A stretch of 64,000 bases of DNA. Origin: Sphingomonas panacis (lineage in GTDB: Bacteria > Pseudomonadota > Alphaproteobacteria > Sphingomonadales > Sphingomonadaceae). The position numbers were made by a program, and so were the translations under genes. The stretch lies in the NCBI RefSeq assembly GCF_001717955.1, contig NZ_CP014168.1:1426001-1490000 (forward strand). The letters run 5' to 3'. The notes beneath the pieces are model-generated. The model was not told the origin of the DNA, did no database searches, and saw only the letters and a program-made list of their open reading frames with translations. Below, piece by piece: positions 7,272-12,302 of this stretch; position 1 is the first letter of the stretch; every line of letters starts with the position of its first letter.

Positions 7272-7907
7272 ATGGATACCACCCAAAGCGCCCAGCACAG
7301 CACCGCCTCGATCGACGCGATGGGGGCCATCTCCACGGTGCATATCGTGCTGATGATCGTGCTGGCGGTCGCGGCGATCCTCGTGATCTGGTGGGGCACC
7401 GTGCTGCGCCGCCGCCGCCGCGAGGCCGACGAGCAGGTCGCCGAGAACCGCGAAATCGCCGAGGACGCCGGCGCGACCGCGCCGCCGACGGTCGAATCGC
7501 CGATGGGGGACGATGTTCCGGCGGTGCCTGTCGCCGCGCCCGAACCGGCGCCGCAGCCGGCCCCCGCGGCCGCGCCCGAACCGGCGCCCCGGCCCGAGCC
7601 CGAGGCTGTCCCTGAGCCTGCGCCAGTCGCTGCCCAGCCCGTGCCCGAGATCGTCTCCGCGCCCTCGACCGGGCCTGAACTGACCCAGCTCAAGGGGCTC
7701 GGCCCCAAGCTCGCCGCCACGCTCGCCGAACTTGGCTACACCCGCGTCGAACAGATCGCCGATCTCACCCCCACCGAAGCCGAAGCGCTCGACGCGCGGC
7801 TCGGCGCGTTCCAGGGCCGCATGGCGCGGGATCGCTGGATCGAACAGGCGCGGCTGCTCACCGCTGGCGATCGCGCCGCATATGAGGCGCAGTTCGGCAA
7901 GCTGTAA
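7272..7907 (+). CDS. Membrane-anchored helix-hairpin-helix protein
   Basis: The 211-residue product has one transmembrane helix (about residues 21-45), a basic stop-transfer RRRRR, an acidic then Pro/Ala/Glu-rich spacer (about 80-128), and a C-terminal helix-hairpin-helix unit (LTQLKGLGPKLAATLAELGY, 137-156, continuing to about 195). The HHH unit resembles the non-enzymatic DNA-binding domain of COG3743-type proteins. In many bacteria similar domains sit on membrane or ribosomal-type proteins of unknown role. It may tether DNA or a nucleoprotein to the membrane, but that is inference. It is followed by a family B repeat shared with the convergent crtB. Confidence 0.75.
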   Translation: MDTTQSAQHSTASIDAMGAISTVHIVLMIVLAVAAILVIWWGTVLRRRRREADEQVAENREIAEDAGATAPPTVESPMGDDVPAVPVAAPEPAPQPAPAAAPEPAPRPEPEAVPEPAPVAAQPVPEIVSAPSTGPELTQLKGLGPKLAATLAELGYTRVEQIADLTPTEAEALDARLGAFQGRMARDRWIEQARLLTAGDRAAYEAQFGKL

Positions 7908-7924: not shown

Positions 7925-8007
7925 CCCGTTCGCACTGAGCCTGTCGAAGTGCGTGCCCCAAACGCTGCGTTCCGGGCACGTGCTTCGACAGGCTCAGCAC
8001 GAACGGG
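7925..8007. repeat. Family B palindromic repeat at convergent gene ends
   Basis: An 83-base inverted repeat bounded by cccgttcg and cgaacggg, with tgagcctgtcgaag and cttcgacaggctca as inner arms. It fills the gap between the stops of the HHH gene and crtB and ends exactly one base before the crtB stop codon. The same core recurs at 8959-9026, 16265-16392 and 56027-56175. It may act as a bidirectional transcript end. Confidence 0.85.
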
Positions 8008-8949
8008 TCAGAAGCGCGGTCGCGTCCAAAGTCCGACGGGGCGTGGCGTGATCGTCATGCCCGCCCGCCCGCGCGCCTCGCCGAGCGCGCGCAGGATGAA
8101 GCGCAGCTTGTCGGCGCGCGAGGTGGTGACGCGGTGGTCCCAGGCCTGTTCGCCGCGCGCGGCGACCTCACGGCCGATCGCGCCGTAGATCGCCGCCGCT
8201 GACAGCACCGCCCAGGCCGAGCGGAACGGCAGCGCCGGTGCCCCAAAGCGCGCGCTCGCCTCGTACAGCGCGGCGCGGTCGGCGAGGCGGCGCGCGAGCA
8301 CGGCGAGCCGCTTGCGGAACGGCGGTTTCATGTGTTGGCCGGGCGGGATGTCCATCTCGACCAGCCAGTCTTCGGGAATGTAGCAGCGCCCGCCGCGATC
8401 ATCCTCCTCGATATCGCGTGCGATATTGGCGAGTTGGAACGCGATGCCGAGATCACAGGCTCGGTCGAGCGTCGCGTGGTCGTGCGGGGATACCCCCATC
8501 ACAATCGCCATCATGCAGCCAACCACGCCCGCGACGTGGTAGCAATATGTGTAGAGATCGGCCTCGCTGCGCGGCCGCCACTCCTCGGCGTCGAGCGCGA
8601 AGCCGGCGATCAGATCATGCGCGAAACGGTGCGGCAGCCCCGTCTCGGCGGCGACGATGCGCAGCGCGTCGAACGCGGGATCGCCGACGTATGCGCCCGC
8701 CAGCGCGGCATCGGTCTTGGCGGTGATCTCGGCGAGGCGCGGCGCCGCATCGGTGACGCGAGTCATCGCATGGCCATGTTCCTGCCCGTCGGCGATATCG
8801 TCGCAGGCGCGGCACCACGCGTAGAGCAACCACGCCTTTTCGCGCGTCGGCCGGTCGAACAATCGGCTCGCGGCGGCGAAGCTCTTCGATCCGAGGGCGA
8901 TAGAAGCGTGCGCGGCAGCGACCGTCTCGGCGCGGGTGGGGGAGATCAG
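8008..8949 (-). CDS. crtB: Phytoene synthase
   Basis: Condenses two geranylgeranyl diphosphates to phytoene, the first step of C40 carotenoids. Both Asp-rich motifs are present: DDIAD at about residues 50-54 and ARDIEEDD at 177-184. SKSFAAASRLFDR (21-33) is the usual N-terminal signature. Alignment by eye puts the N terminus at ISPTRAETVAAAH, but no ATG, GTG or TTG is in frame there. The listed start is CTG at 8949, five bases after a GGAGG; ATC at 8946 is eight bases after it. The only ATG upstream lies about 110 codons inside the LOG gene and is implausible. It is the last gene of crtY-crtI-LOG-crtB. Confidence 0.88.
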   Translation of the reverse strand: MISPTRAETVAAAHASIALGSKSFAAASRLFDRPTREKAWLLYAWCRACDDIADGQEHGHAMTRVTDAAPRLAEITAKTDAALAGAYVGDPAFDALRIVAAETGLPHRFAHDLIAGFALDAEEWRPRSEADLYTYCYHVAGVVGCMMAIVMGVSPHDHATLDRACDLGIAFQLANIARDIEEDDRGGRCYIPEDWLVEMDIPPGQHMKPPFRKRLAVLARRLADRAALYEASARFGAPALPFRSAWAVLSAAAIYGAIGREVAARGEQAWDHRVTTSRADKLRFILRALGEARGRAGMTITPRPVGLWTRPRF

Positions 8950-8958
8950 CGCACCCTC

Positions 8959-9026
8959 CGTTCGCCCCGAGCGAAGTCGAGGGGCACGCGAGGCGCGGGG
9001 GCCTCGACTTCGCTCGGCCCGAGCGG
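8959..9026. repeat. Family B palindromic repeat between LOG and crtB
   Basis: Inverted arms ccccgagcgaagtcgagg and cctcgacttcgctcggcc form a hairpin of about 68 bases just upstream of the phytoene synthase reading frame. The end of the element (cgaacgg on the minus strand) runs directly into the GGAGG that would serve as the crtB ribosome binding site. The repeat may therefore have been inserted into, or reshaped, the crtB leader. Confidence 0.75.
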
Positions 9027-9044
9027 TGCGAAGACCTTCACCCG

Positions 9045-9626
9045 CTACAGATCCGCCTTGCGCATCTTGGTGATCGTCTCGATCGGCGCGTGCGCCGCCA
9101 TCTGCGCGAGCAGCCCATCGAGCGTATCGTCGACGATCAGGATGCGCTGGTGCTGCGGGCGCAGGAAGCCGACCTCGCCCATCTTGGCGACGAACGCGAT
9201 CAGATGATCGTAATAGCCCGCGACATTGAGCAGCCCGACCGGCTTGGCGTGATAGCCGATCTGCGCCCAGCTCAGCGCCTCCCACAATTCGTCCATCGTG
9301 CCGGTGCCGCCGGGCAGGTTGATGAACCCGTCCGACAGATCGGTGAACGCCTGCTTGCGCTGGTGCATCGTCTCGACGACGCGCAGATCGGTGCAGCCCC
9401 GGTGCGCGACTTCGGCGCTAACGAGGGCGGTCGGGATGATCCCGATCACCTCGCCACCCGCCTCCAGCGCGCCATCGGCGACCGCGCCCATCAGCCCGAG
9501 CCGACCGCCGCCATAGACGACACCGATGCCGCGCTCGGCGAGCGCACGGCCAACCGCGCGCGCGGAGTCGATATAGACGGGATCGGTCGGCGAGGCCGAG
9601 CCGCAATAAACCGCGAGGCGCTTCAT
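9045..9626 (-). CDS. LOG family protein (cytokinin riboside 5'-monophosphate phosphoribohydrolase type)
   Basis: The 193-residue Rossmann-fold protein (TIGR00730 type) begins MKRLAVYCGSASPTD. The hallmark PGGTGTMDE catalytic motif sits at about residues 105-113, after GGGRLGLMG near residue 40. Family members release free base and ribose 5-phosphate from nucleoside monophosphates; some activate cytokinins. Its physiological substrate here is unknown. It lies 25 bases after crtI and before crtB on the same strand, so it is embedded in the carotenoid operon. LOG genes are often found alone, so the position is unexpected. Confidence 0.9.
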   Translation of the reverse strand: MKRLAVYCGSASPTDPVYIDSARAVGRALAERGIGVVYGGGRLGLMGAVADGALEAGGEVIGIIPTALVSAEVAHRGCTDLRVVETMHQRKQAFTDLSDGFINLPGGTGTMDELWEALSWAQIGYHAKPVGLLNVAGYYDHLIAFVAKMGEVGFLRPQHQRILIVDDTLDGLLAQMAAHAPIETITKMRKADL

Positions 9627-9651: not shown

Positions 9652-11142
9652 TCACTTCAAATCCTCCAGCATCAACGCCGCCGTCGCCTTGGCACTTCCC
9701 ACCACGCCGGGAATCCCCGCGCCCGGATGCGTGCCCGCGCCGACGAAATACAGGTTCGGAATCTGGTCGTCGCGGTTGTGGACGCGGAACCAGGCGCTTT
9801 GCGTCAGGATCGGTTCGAGCGAGAACGCGCTGCCGAGATGCGCGTTGAGGTCGCCCGCGAAATCCTGCGGCGTATAGCTGAACTTGGTGACGATCCGGTC
9901 GTGGATGTCGGGGATCAGCCGCCGCCCGATCTCATCGAGGATGCGCTTCTCCAAGATCGGCGCGATCTCCGTCCAGTCGACCGGGAACTTGCCCATGTGC
10001 GGCACCGGTGCGAGCGCGTAGAAGGTCGAATGGCCTTCGGGCGCGAGGCTCGGATCGGTGACGGTCGGGTGGTGGAGGTAAAGCGAGAAATCCTCGGGCA
10101 GCACGCCGTGATCGTAAATGTCGGCGAGCAGCCCTTTGTAGCGCGGGCCGAACAGGATCATGTGGTGCGGGATGCCCGGCCACGTCCCCTTGATGCCGAA
10201 ATGGACGACGAACAGCGACGGCGACCAGCGCTTGTTCTCCAGCCGCTTGCGCGTGCGCTGCGCGCTGCGCGAGGTCTTGAGCAGATCGCGGTAGATGTGC
10301 ATCACGTCGCCGTTGCACGCGATCATGTCGGCATTTGCCTGCCAGCCGCTCGCGGTGGTGACGCCGGTGGCGCGGTCGCCCACCGTCTCGATGCCCGTCA
10401 CCGCGTCGCCCAGGCGCACCACGCCGCCGAGCCGCTCGAAATGCGTGACCATGCCCGCGATCAGCCGATTCGTGCCGCCGCGCGCGAACCAGACGCCGCC
10501 GTCGCGTTCGAGCTTGTGGATCAGCGCGTAGATCGCGCTCGTCGTCATCGGATTGCCGCCGACCAGCAGCGTGTGGAACGACAGCGCCTGCCGCAGATGC
10601 TCGTCCTTCACGAACGACGACACCATCGAATAGACCGAGCGCCACGCCTGATAGCGCGCCAGCGCCGGCGCGGCCTTGATCATCGCCGCGAAATCGAGGA
10701 ACGCGGTCGCGCCGAGCTTCACATAGCCTTCCTCGTATACGCCGGCGGCATAGTCGAGGAACTTGCGATAGCCAGCGACATCGTCGGGGTTGAGCTTGGC
10801 GATCTCGGCGGTGAGCGCGGGGTCGTCGTTCGAATAATCGAAGCTGACGCCGTCCGCCCAGTTGAGCCGGTAGAACGGCATCACCGGCACCAGCGCCACG
10901 TCCTCGGCCATGTCGCGCCCGCTCAGCGCCCACAGTTCGCGCAGGCAGGCCGGATCGGTGATGACGGTCGGGCCGGCGTCGAAGGTGAAGCCGTCGCGCT
11001 CCCACACATAGGCGCGCCCGCCCGGCTTGTCGCGCGCCTCGACGATGATCGTGTCGATCCCCGCCGATTGCAGGCGGATGCCGAGCGCGAGGCCGCCGAA
11101 GCCTGCGCCGATCACGATCGCGGTACGCGCCGGTGCGGCCAT
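9652..11142 (-). CDS. crtI: Phytoene desaturase
   Basis: FAD enzyme of 496 residues that introduces double bonds into phytoene to give lycopene, at the membrane surface. The N terminus has the dinucleotide-binding motif IVIGAGFGGLALG (about 9-21) followed by EARDKPGGRA. The C terminus has the CrtI-type signature GAGTHPGAGIPGVVGSAK. The length matches bacterial CrtI. Its ATG shares one base with the crtY stop (TGATG), indicating coupling to lycopene cyclase. LOG and crtB follow on the same strand. Confidence 0.95.
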   Translation of the reverse strand: MAAPARTAIVIGAGFGGLALGIRLQSAGIDTIIVEARDKPGGRAYVWERDGFTFDAGPTVITDPACLRELWALSGRDMAEDVALVPVMPFYRLNWADGVSFDYSNDDPALTAEIAKLNPDDVAGYRKFLDYAAGVYEEGYVKLGATAFLDFAAMIKAAPALARYQAWRSVYSMVSSFVKDEHLRQALSFHTLLVGGNPMTTSAIYALIHKLERDGGVWFARGGTNRLIAGMVTHFERLGGVVRLGDAVTGIETVGDRATGVTTASGWQANADMIACNGDVMHIYRDLLKTSRSAQRTRKRLENKRWSPSLFVVHFGIKGTWPGIPHHMILFGPRYKGLLADIYDHGVLPEDFSLYLHHPTVTDPSLAPEGHSTFYALAPVPHMGKFPVDWTEIAPILEKRILDEIGRRLIPDIHDRIVTKFSYTPQDFAGDLNAHLGSAFSLEPILTQSAWFRVHNRDDQIPNLYFVGAGTHPGAGIPGVVGSAKATAALMLEDLK

Positions 11143-12302
11143 CAGCGGCAGCCCGCAAGCGCGGCGATGGCGCGGCCGATCGGCACCGGCGGCTTGCCGG
11201 ACAGGACACGCATCTTGTCCGTCATCGTCGTCGTCCCTGCGTAAAAACGTCCGATCAGCTCGGAGTCGAGGCGGTAGAAGCGTTCGAGGAGGCGGTATCG
11301 TTCCTTCGGATCGGCGGCGCGAAACAGCATGCGCGCGAGACTACGATAGAAGCCGCGCGCACGCCACAGCCGTTGCGCATGGCGGTGCGTGAGATCGTGC
11401 AGCGCGGCGCCCGAAAGATCGGTCGTCTTCGCGACCAGCGCCGCCAGCCGAACCGCATCGGGCAGCGAATAGCCGGTCATCGGGTGGAACAGCCCGGCGC
11501 GCATCCCCGCCTTGGCGACGCGAGCGCCGCCGCTCAGCCAATAGCCCTCGAAATCGCCGCCCATCGCCACCGGCAGTACGCCGGTTTCCTCGCGCAGCAC
11601 GCGCTCGGGCAGCCAGCCGCGCGCCGCGACATAGGCGTCGATCCGCTCGGCCAGCACCGGGCCGTCGAGATCGGGCGTGTCGCTGTAATAGGTATCCTCG
11701 ACGAACATCCGAGTCGCCGCGAACGGCAGGCAATAGACGAAGCGATAGCCGTCCTCCTGCGATATGGTCGCGTCCATCACGATCGGGCGGTCGAGGCCGT
11801 GCGGCTCGGCGAGCTCGACCTCGCACCCGGCGAACTTCTGCCAGCCGAGATCGAGCCGGCCGAGATCGGCGGGCCCGCGCGCGTCGATCACGCCCTTGGC
11901 CGAAATCTGGTCGCCATCGGTGAGCAGCACCGCCGTCGGCGCGACATCGGTCACGCGCCGCCCGGTCATCAGCGCGCGCGGCGCGAGCCGGTCGCGCAGC
12001 ACCTGGTCGAGCCGCTCCGATTCGATCGAATAATAGGTCTGCGCGATGCTGCGGCGGTGCGCGGGAAAGGCGACGTCATAGCCCGCCCAGCCGTGGCAGA
12101 CGAGCGGCGCGACCAGCCAGCGATCCGCCGCCGCGACATCGCTCGCGAAGAACGACCAGACGTGGTTGCCGCCGAGGTGCGGGTTTTCTTCGACGATGCG
12201 CAGATCGAGATCGGGGCGGGCGCGGCGCAGGGCGAGCGCGAGCAGGCCGCCCGCAAGACCGCCGCCGACGATCGCGAGGTCACAGTGGTGGACTTCGGAC
12301 AT
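11142..12302 (-). CDS. crtY: Lycopene beta-cyclase
   Basis: Converts lycopene to beta-carotene by forming both rings. The 386-residue CrtY-type flavoprotein has DLAIVGGGLAGGLLA (8-22) as the nucleotide-binding site, then the GGNHVWSF region near residue 45, and the FHPMTGYSLPDAVRLA block in the C-terminal half, typical of the family. It is the first gene of the minus-strand carotenoid operon and is separated by only 64 bases from the divergent hydroxylase-like gene, so a shared divergent promoter region is likely in 12303-12366. Confidence 0.95.
   Translation of the reverse strand: MSEVHHCDLAIVGGGLAGGLLALALRRARPDLDLRIVEENPHLGGNHVWSFFASDVAAADRWLVAPLVCHGWAGYDVAFPAHRRSIAQTYYSIESERLDQVLRDRLAPRALMTGRRVTDVAPTAVLLTDGDQISAKGVIDARGPADLGRLDLGWQKFAGCEVELAEPHGLDRPIVMDATISQEDGYRFVYCLPFAATRMFVEDTYYSDTPDLDGPVLAERIDAYVAARGWLPERVLREETGVLPVAMGGDFEGYWLSGGARVAKAGMRAGLFHPMTGYSLPDAVRLAALVAKTTDLSGAALHDLTHRHAQRLWRARGFYRSLARMLFRAADPKERYRLLERFYRLDSELIGRFYAGTTTMTDKMRVLSGKPPVPIGRAIAALAGCR

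Follow-up and report, generated by a model that had tools for sequence, protein, structure and literature searches.

How does translation of crtB begin in a genome in which the gene has no ordinary start codon? The question is raised by a 64-kb part of a 5.32-Mb Sphingomonas-type genome (the whole of this 64-kb stretch is hereafter called the window), in which crtB follows crtY, crtI and a LOG-like gene and is separated from the last of these by a palindromic repeat (Table 1). CrtB is the first, committed enzyme of the bacterial carotenoid pathway. The protein encoded in the window showed full-length homology to CrtB in the profile test, with Phyto_syn_CrtB (NF042419) as its best NCBIfam model (residues 12-312, 326.9 bits, which is under the curated cut-off of 480); the same model was matched in 198 of 201 genus genomes. 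A further palindrome, different in kind, occupies positions 7941-8000, directly 3' of the crtB stop and ahead of a convergent gene (7272..7907).

An ordinary crtB start is absent. Upstream of the conserved ISPTRAE sequence, the first ATG, GTG or TTG in the crtB frame is GTG 9285, 112 codons before CTG 8949, and the frame runs back to a stop 157 codons upstream. The original prediction had put this startless stretch at about 110 codons and had named CTG 8949 and ATC 8946, both close to a GGAGG, as the candidate initiators; the length and the two distances are as it described. The database call for the locus (P0002, 297 aa) begins at the internal ATC 8901.

Table 1. Positions of the features of the crtB locus within the window.
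Feature	Position	Strand	Remarks	Basis
crtB, phytoene synthase	8008..8949	-	313 aa if CTG-started	profile match, full-length homology
Internal ATC	8899..8901	-	start of database gene call P0002	
ATC, alternative start from the original prediction	8944..8946	-	present in S. populi, absent from other CTG leaders	
Relay ORF, GTG, 31 codons, TGA	8946..9041	-	3 nt past LOG stop; crosses the palindrome; stop overlapped by crtB CTG	
CTG, proposed crtB start	8947..8949	-	joined to A8946 as CTGA; overlaps the end of the relay ORF by 4 nt	
GGAGG, Shine-Dalgarno-like	8955..8959	-	5 nt to CTG 8949, 8 nt to ATC 8946	
Palindromic repeat, dispersed family	8958..9026		arms 8958-8990 and 8994-9026, 82% complementary	
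LOG-like gene (TIGR00730 family)	9045..9626	-	stop TAG 9047-9045	profile match
crtI, phytoene desaturase family	9652..11142	-		profile match
crtY, lycopene beta-cyclase	11142..12302	-		profile match

We surveyed crtB leaders across sphingomonads. Genus and family searches, taken among the matches listed, together with named genomes gave 313 loci and 268 distinct crtB leaders; the family search contributed 60 further places among the matches listed, the loci of G040, G159, G012, G075 and G094 were left out of the genus set, and L109 and L110 were left out because they had no usable anchor. A start was accepted if ATG, GTG or TTG stood 12-35 codons before the conserved SKSF. The first usable ordinary start was GTG in 136 leaders, ATG in 78 and TTG in 33, and 21 had none. 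Four of these 21 have an ordinary start 36-46 codons upstream, and 16 of the remaining 17 carry CTG at the expected place. They comprise the window, Sphingomonas populi, nine members of the S. melonis/aquatilis group, Sphingobium xenophagum, S. natans, L217, L220 and L225. On a FastTree tree of LOG plus CrtB (258 tips), the CTG state needs six changes. At the same loci an ordinary start was lacking in 0/257 LOG genes and 0/91 crtI genes (2/97 for crtI when only 15 codons were allowed). The CTG of the S. melonis/aquatilis group falls within the end of LOG, and with an in-frame stop three codons ahead of it no other start is near.

The survey also turned up several peculiar loci. Two CTG leaders, L067 and L071, have a 15-nt in-frame direct duplication (PSRDA) at the crtB N-terminus, and the start of L071 was placed at its second CTG (gap 4) for the gap and tree counts. 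The record of L067, QDFQ01000003.1, is titled Arthrobacter sp. TPD3018, a title that is probably wrong, since its crtB groups with Sphingomonas aquatilis. Matches to crtB with one internal in-frame stop were seen in the family search in G420, G435, G469, G297, G368, G451, G329 and G375.

In the window, crtB very likely begins at CTG 8949, which is the best candidate. Sphingomonas populi 3-7, with a CrtB that is 95% identical, shares the leader, the repeat and the CTG ATC, and likewise lacks an ordinary start. The original prediction that a non-standard codon starts the gene is supported, CTG recurring in 16 leaders; CTG is preferred to ATC 8946, the second proposed initiator, because the other CTG leaders share it and have no ATC after it. 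That translation begins at ATC 8946, or at the database call's internal ATC 8901, is quite improbable: the former stands 8 nt from the GGAGG and the latter is where P0002 begins, yet the residues ahead of 8901 (TRxxxVAxAxxSI) are conserved among relatives.

Another explanation is that the crtB start has been lost and the gene is decaying, or that the sequence is wrong. The original prediction had itself named a sequencing error as an alternative. A metagenome protein, P0003, which is 95% identical and begins VLISTTPTRAE, is counter-evidence to a CTG start, as it has an ordinary start (GTG as read from the protein's V) one codon ahead of where the window has its CTG, and L227 (G142) has neither a CTG at the expected place nor an ordinary in-frame start nearer than 69 codons upstream. 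Against this, S. populi shares the leader in a separate assembly, which makes an error in a single assembly unlikely; about 290 crtB codons compared between the window and S. populi show 62 synonymous and 13 non-synonymous differences; and the genome contains no second full crtB, the only other matches being two weak, squalene-synthase-like ones at 4.67 Mb. We regard decay or error as highly improbable.

The original prediction took the palindromic repeat to be a possible cause of the loss of the ordinary start. Its 68 bases gave 59 matches genome-wide, with many places matched on both strands, and it is thus a dispersed short repeat lying between co-directional operon genes, LOG and crtB. Palindromic sequence at this junction is widespread: an exact inverted-repeat arm of at least 10 was found in 56 of the 93 LOG-crtB gaps of at least 40 nt when loop length was left free, as against 5 of 465 shuffles, while an earlier measure that allowed short loops only gave 8/93. 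(Gap counts use the 258 of 268 leaders that had a LOG stop and a called start.) The proposal that the element replaced the original leader and start, and so caused the loss, is not supported and we reject it: many relatives have ordinary starts despite palindromic inserts in this gap, and in 14 of the 16 CTG leaders crtB overlaps or abuts the end of LOG, with no repeat gap between.

What the relatives do share is the spacing of the two genes. The crtB start of most sphingomonads in the survey either overlaps the LOG stop or is close to it, NTGA being the commonest arrangement, and the exact -4 overlap occurs in 104 of 258 loci, with GTG in 83, TTG in 15, CTG in 5 and ATG in 1. Because the crtB start overlaps the LOG stop, the N of NTGA is at the same time the last base of the final LOG codon. 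C at this base is rarer in -4 overlaps (5/104) than otherwise (29/154, p 0.001), which suggests that CTG is tolerated and works but is not favoured.

In the window the same kind of overlap is made by a small ORF that spans the gap, which we call a relay. The relay reaches past the repeat on both sides, from a GTG 3 nt after the TAG stop of LOG to a CTGA in which its TGA (8948-8946) is overlapped by CTG 8949-8947. The relay of S. populi (L002) has the same 31 codons, length and frame. L003, the nearest relative without this repeat, has a TTG start, a 38-nt gap and a 12-codon relay ending in TTGA; the difference from the 95-nt gap of the window is 57, a multiple of three. In L004 the string LOG stop-CGG-GTG is the crtB start itself, with the GTG three bases past the LOG stop, while in the window the same string opens the 31-codon ORF that runs through the repeat and finishes in CTGA; the comparison suggests that the old crtB start may survive as the start of the relay.

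We scored relays by two definitions. A strict relay starts from -4 to +3 of the LOG stop and has its TGA overlapped by the crtB start; a loose one starts from -4 to +20 and ends no more than 12 nt from the crtB start. Among the 93 gaps of 40 nt or longer, 45 held strict relays (the count reported throughout) and 59 loose ones, and strict relays were also present in 12 of 39 gaps of 5-39 nt. Where NTGA stood at both ends, the gap was in relay phase in 42/50 cases (p 2e-13), or 22/30 by distinct lengths (p 9e-6); the figure for the remaining gaps was 18/43 (p 0.15). The phase of LOG against crtB is independent of which start is chosen, so the test is a fair one. In 40 of the 42 in-phase gaps the frame was open, compared with 14.8 (sd 3.0) in shuffles; in the same gaps the other forward frames were open in 9 and 14, and the reverse frames in 19, 23 and 23. 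After removal of a large clade with GRGP/WAPAFAG peptides, 18/25 gaps were in phase (p 9e-5) and 17 of these 18 were open, and among tree-independent pairs the lengths differed by multiples of three in 16/20, against 3/17 without NTGA at both ends (Fisher p 2e-4). Relays are rarer outside the genus-centred set (4/30 vs 41/63), and the window's own relay is known from two species, the window and S. populi.

The peptide shows a different pattern. Over eight close pairs, relay substitutions were spread evenly over the codon positions (41/48/40), with 16 synonymous and 77 non-synonymous codons, and so gave no sign of purifying selection on the relay peptide; in the same pairs crtB (47/20/225) and LOG (31/11/119) were gene-like. 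We reject a function of the peptide on these counts. Across palindromic inserts in the genus, the open frame and its ends are kept, and the peptide is not conserved.

Our preferred reading, to which we give a probability of roughly 0.6, is that crtB is translated from CTG 8949 through stop-start coupling that a relay carries over the repeat. In a putative crtY-crtI-LOG-crtB operon, with crtB at its end, ribosomes finishing LOG would restart on crtB at an overlapping or nearby start. Where a palindromic repeat has come to lie between LOG and crtB, as in the window, a short open frame would tend to be retained across the gap; it would pick up the ribosome at the LOG stop and pass it to crtB through a second NTGA. 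The act of translating the relay would matter, not its peptide, and the crtB CTG would be part of such an NTGA as its N, aided here by a strong GGAGG. We infer both that the relay is translated and that it delivers ribosomes to crtB.

A serious rival, though a less probable one, is direct initiation, in which ribosomes bind GGAGG 8959-8955 and start at the CTG without translation of LOG or the relay, the 31-codon ORF being incidental. The 5-nt spacing and a duplex energy of -10.0 kcal/mol with the anti-Shine-Dalgarno sequence speak for it. So does the position of the window outside the 50-gap test set, owing to its TAG LOG stop, as does the background of relay-like ORFs: 20 other tandem gaps of the window, delimited by crude gene calls, contained one strict and six loose relays. 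It does not readily explain why the exact CTGA overlap and the frame are kept in S. populi, why L003 has a relay of another length, or why relatives show a general phase constraint.

Signal strength does not decide in favour of coupling. We had predicted weaker Shine-Dalgarno sequences at relay loci, and the prediction failed: the median duplex energy was -6.6 in the 45 relay loci and -3.2 in the 104 loci with -4 overlaps, so that relay loci have the stronger signal (p 2e-5). With the window's signal strong as well, coupling cannot be argued from a missing Shine-Dalgarno sequence. Folding gave no sign that translation of the relay frees the Shine-Dalgarno sequence, its unpaired fraction being 0.25 in the full leader and 0.20 once the 5' part of the leader is removed. 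Shuffled sequences fold less well than the whole leader (z -2.18).

The relay appears to belong more to the LOG-crtB junction than to the repeat, given that only 1 of 11 other copies of the repeat in tandem gaps of the same genome sits in a strict relay, and 2 of 11 in a loose one (crude gene calls). One other copy, L335 (G000:C1:1989935-1990004), lies within a relay ORF between tandem genes that begins with GTG 3 nt past the upstream stop, runs for 54 codons and ends in ATGA at the called downstream start.

More broadly, sphingomonad CrtB could be slaved to translation of LOG, so that any invading palindrome is kept as a peptide-neutral relay with overlaps at both ends, and the start codon, CTG included, is set by the base before TGA; the arrangement would be an independent counterpart, outside mycobacteria, of the relay proposed for MIRUs. 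We hold the case for this wider proposition to be about evenly balanced. With its many gap lengths and insert types, the junction amounts to a natural experiment in which translating a frame would be under selection while its product is not. The limits that ribosome hand-over sets to operon gaps and mobile repeats can be tested directly on it, as can the tolerance of reinitiation for CTG. As this genome shows, gene callers restricted to ATG, GTG and TTG will probably place some crtB starts wrongly.

We found no report of such a relay in Sphingomonas in the literature searched, which left subscription journals mostly outside. The crt loci of Sphingomonadales have been described in a study, parts of which place LOG between crtI and crtB in 24 strains and assign crt ORF starts as ATG, GTG, TTG or CTG (PMC5989583); a CTG start as such is thus not new in these loci, while a relay ORF or repeat goes unmentioned in its section 13 and the other passages seen. 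The same passages report an unchanged pigment profile after LOG deletion in S. elodea, which counts against coupling (PMC5989583). A qualitative pigment profile need not show an altered CrtB level.

Several known systems resemble parts of the preferred reading. The -4 spacing of LOG and crtB in 104/258 loci is like that of NTGA termination-reinitiation as treated in passages of PMC10666635, with the difference that here a third small frame is set in between. According to those passages, coupling is almost lost once the gap reaches some 20-38 nt, and a relay would be useful for this reason (PMC10666635). In the Salmonella mgtC-mgtB gap, mgtQ is likewise an intergenic small ORF that promotes translation of the next operon gene; it does so, in the part of the account considered here, by releasing a sequestered Shine-Dalgarno sequence (PMC8092293), a release that folding does not support at crtB. 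The mycobacterial RTGA-coupled small ORFs, as excerpts of PMC4633059 present them, share the overlap of TGA with the next start and the keeping of linkage while the peptide diverges. They begin leaderless transcripts, whereas the relay lies inside an operon after LOG, and CTG is not enriched as a start in mycobacteria in the same excerpts (PMC4633059).

The likeness to the mycobacterial MIRUs is one of description. Supply et al. 1997 are said to have characterized MIRUs as short dispersed repeats in operons, insertion of which reportedly affects expression little. A review that cites that work describes them, in the portion considered here, as mobile repeats with an ORF that comes to be coupled to the downstream gene at a spacing of -4 (PMC12548453). 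Common to both are a short dispersed repeat between operon genes and an ORF with -4 spacing to the next gene. The sphingomonad inserts differ in being palindromes of several kinds, with lengths that vary between species and a relay that lies partly outside the repeat; genus and phylum are others, and the downstream start here is CTG. By this analogy, the LOG-crtB relay may work like the relay proposed for MIRUs.
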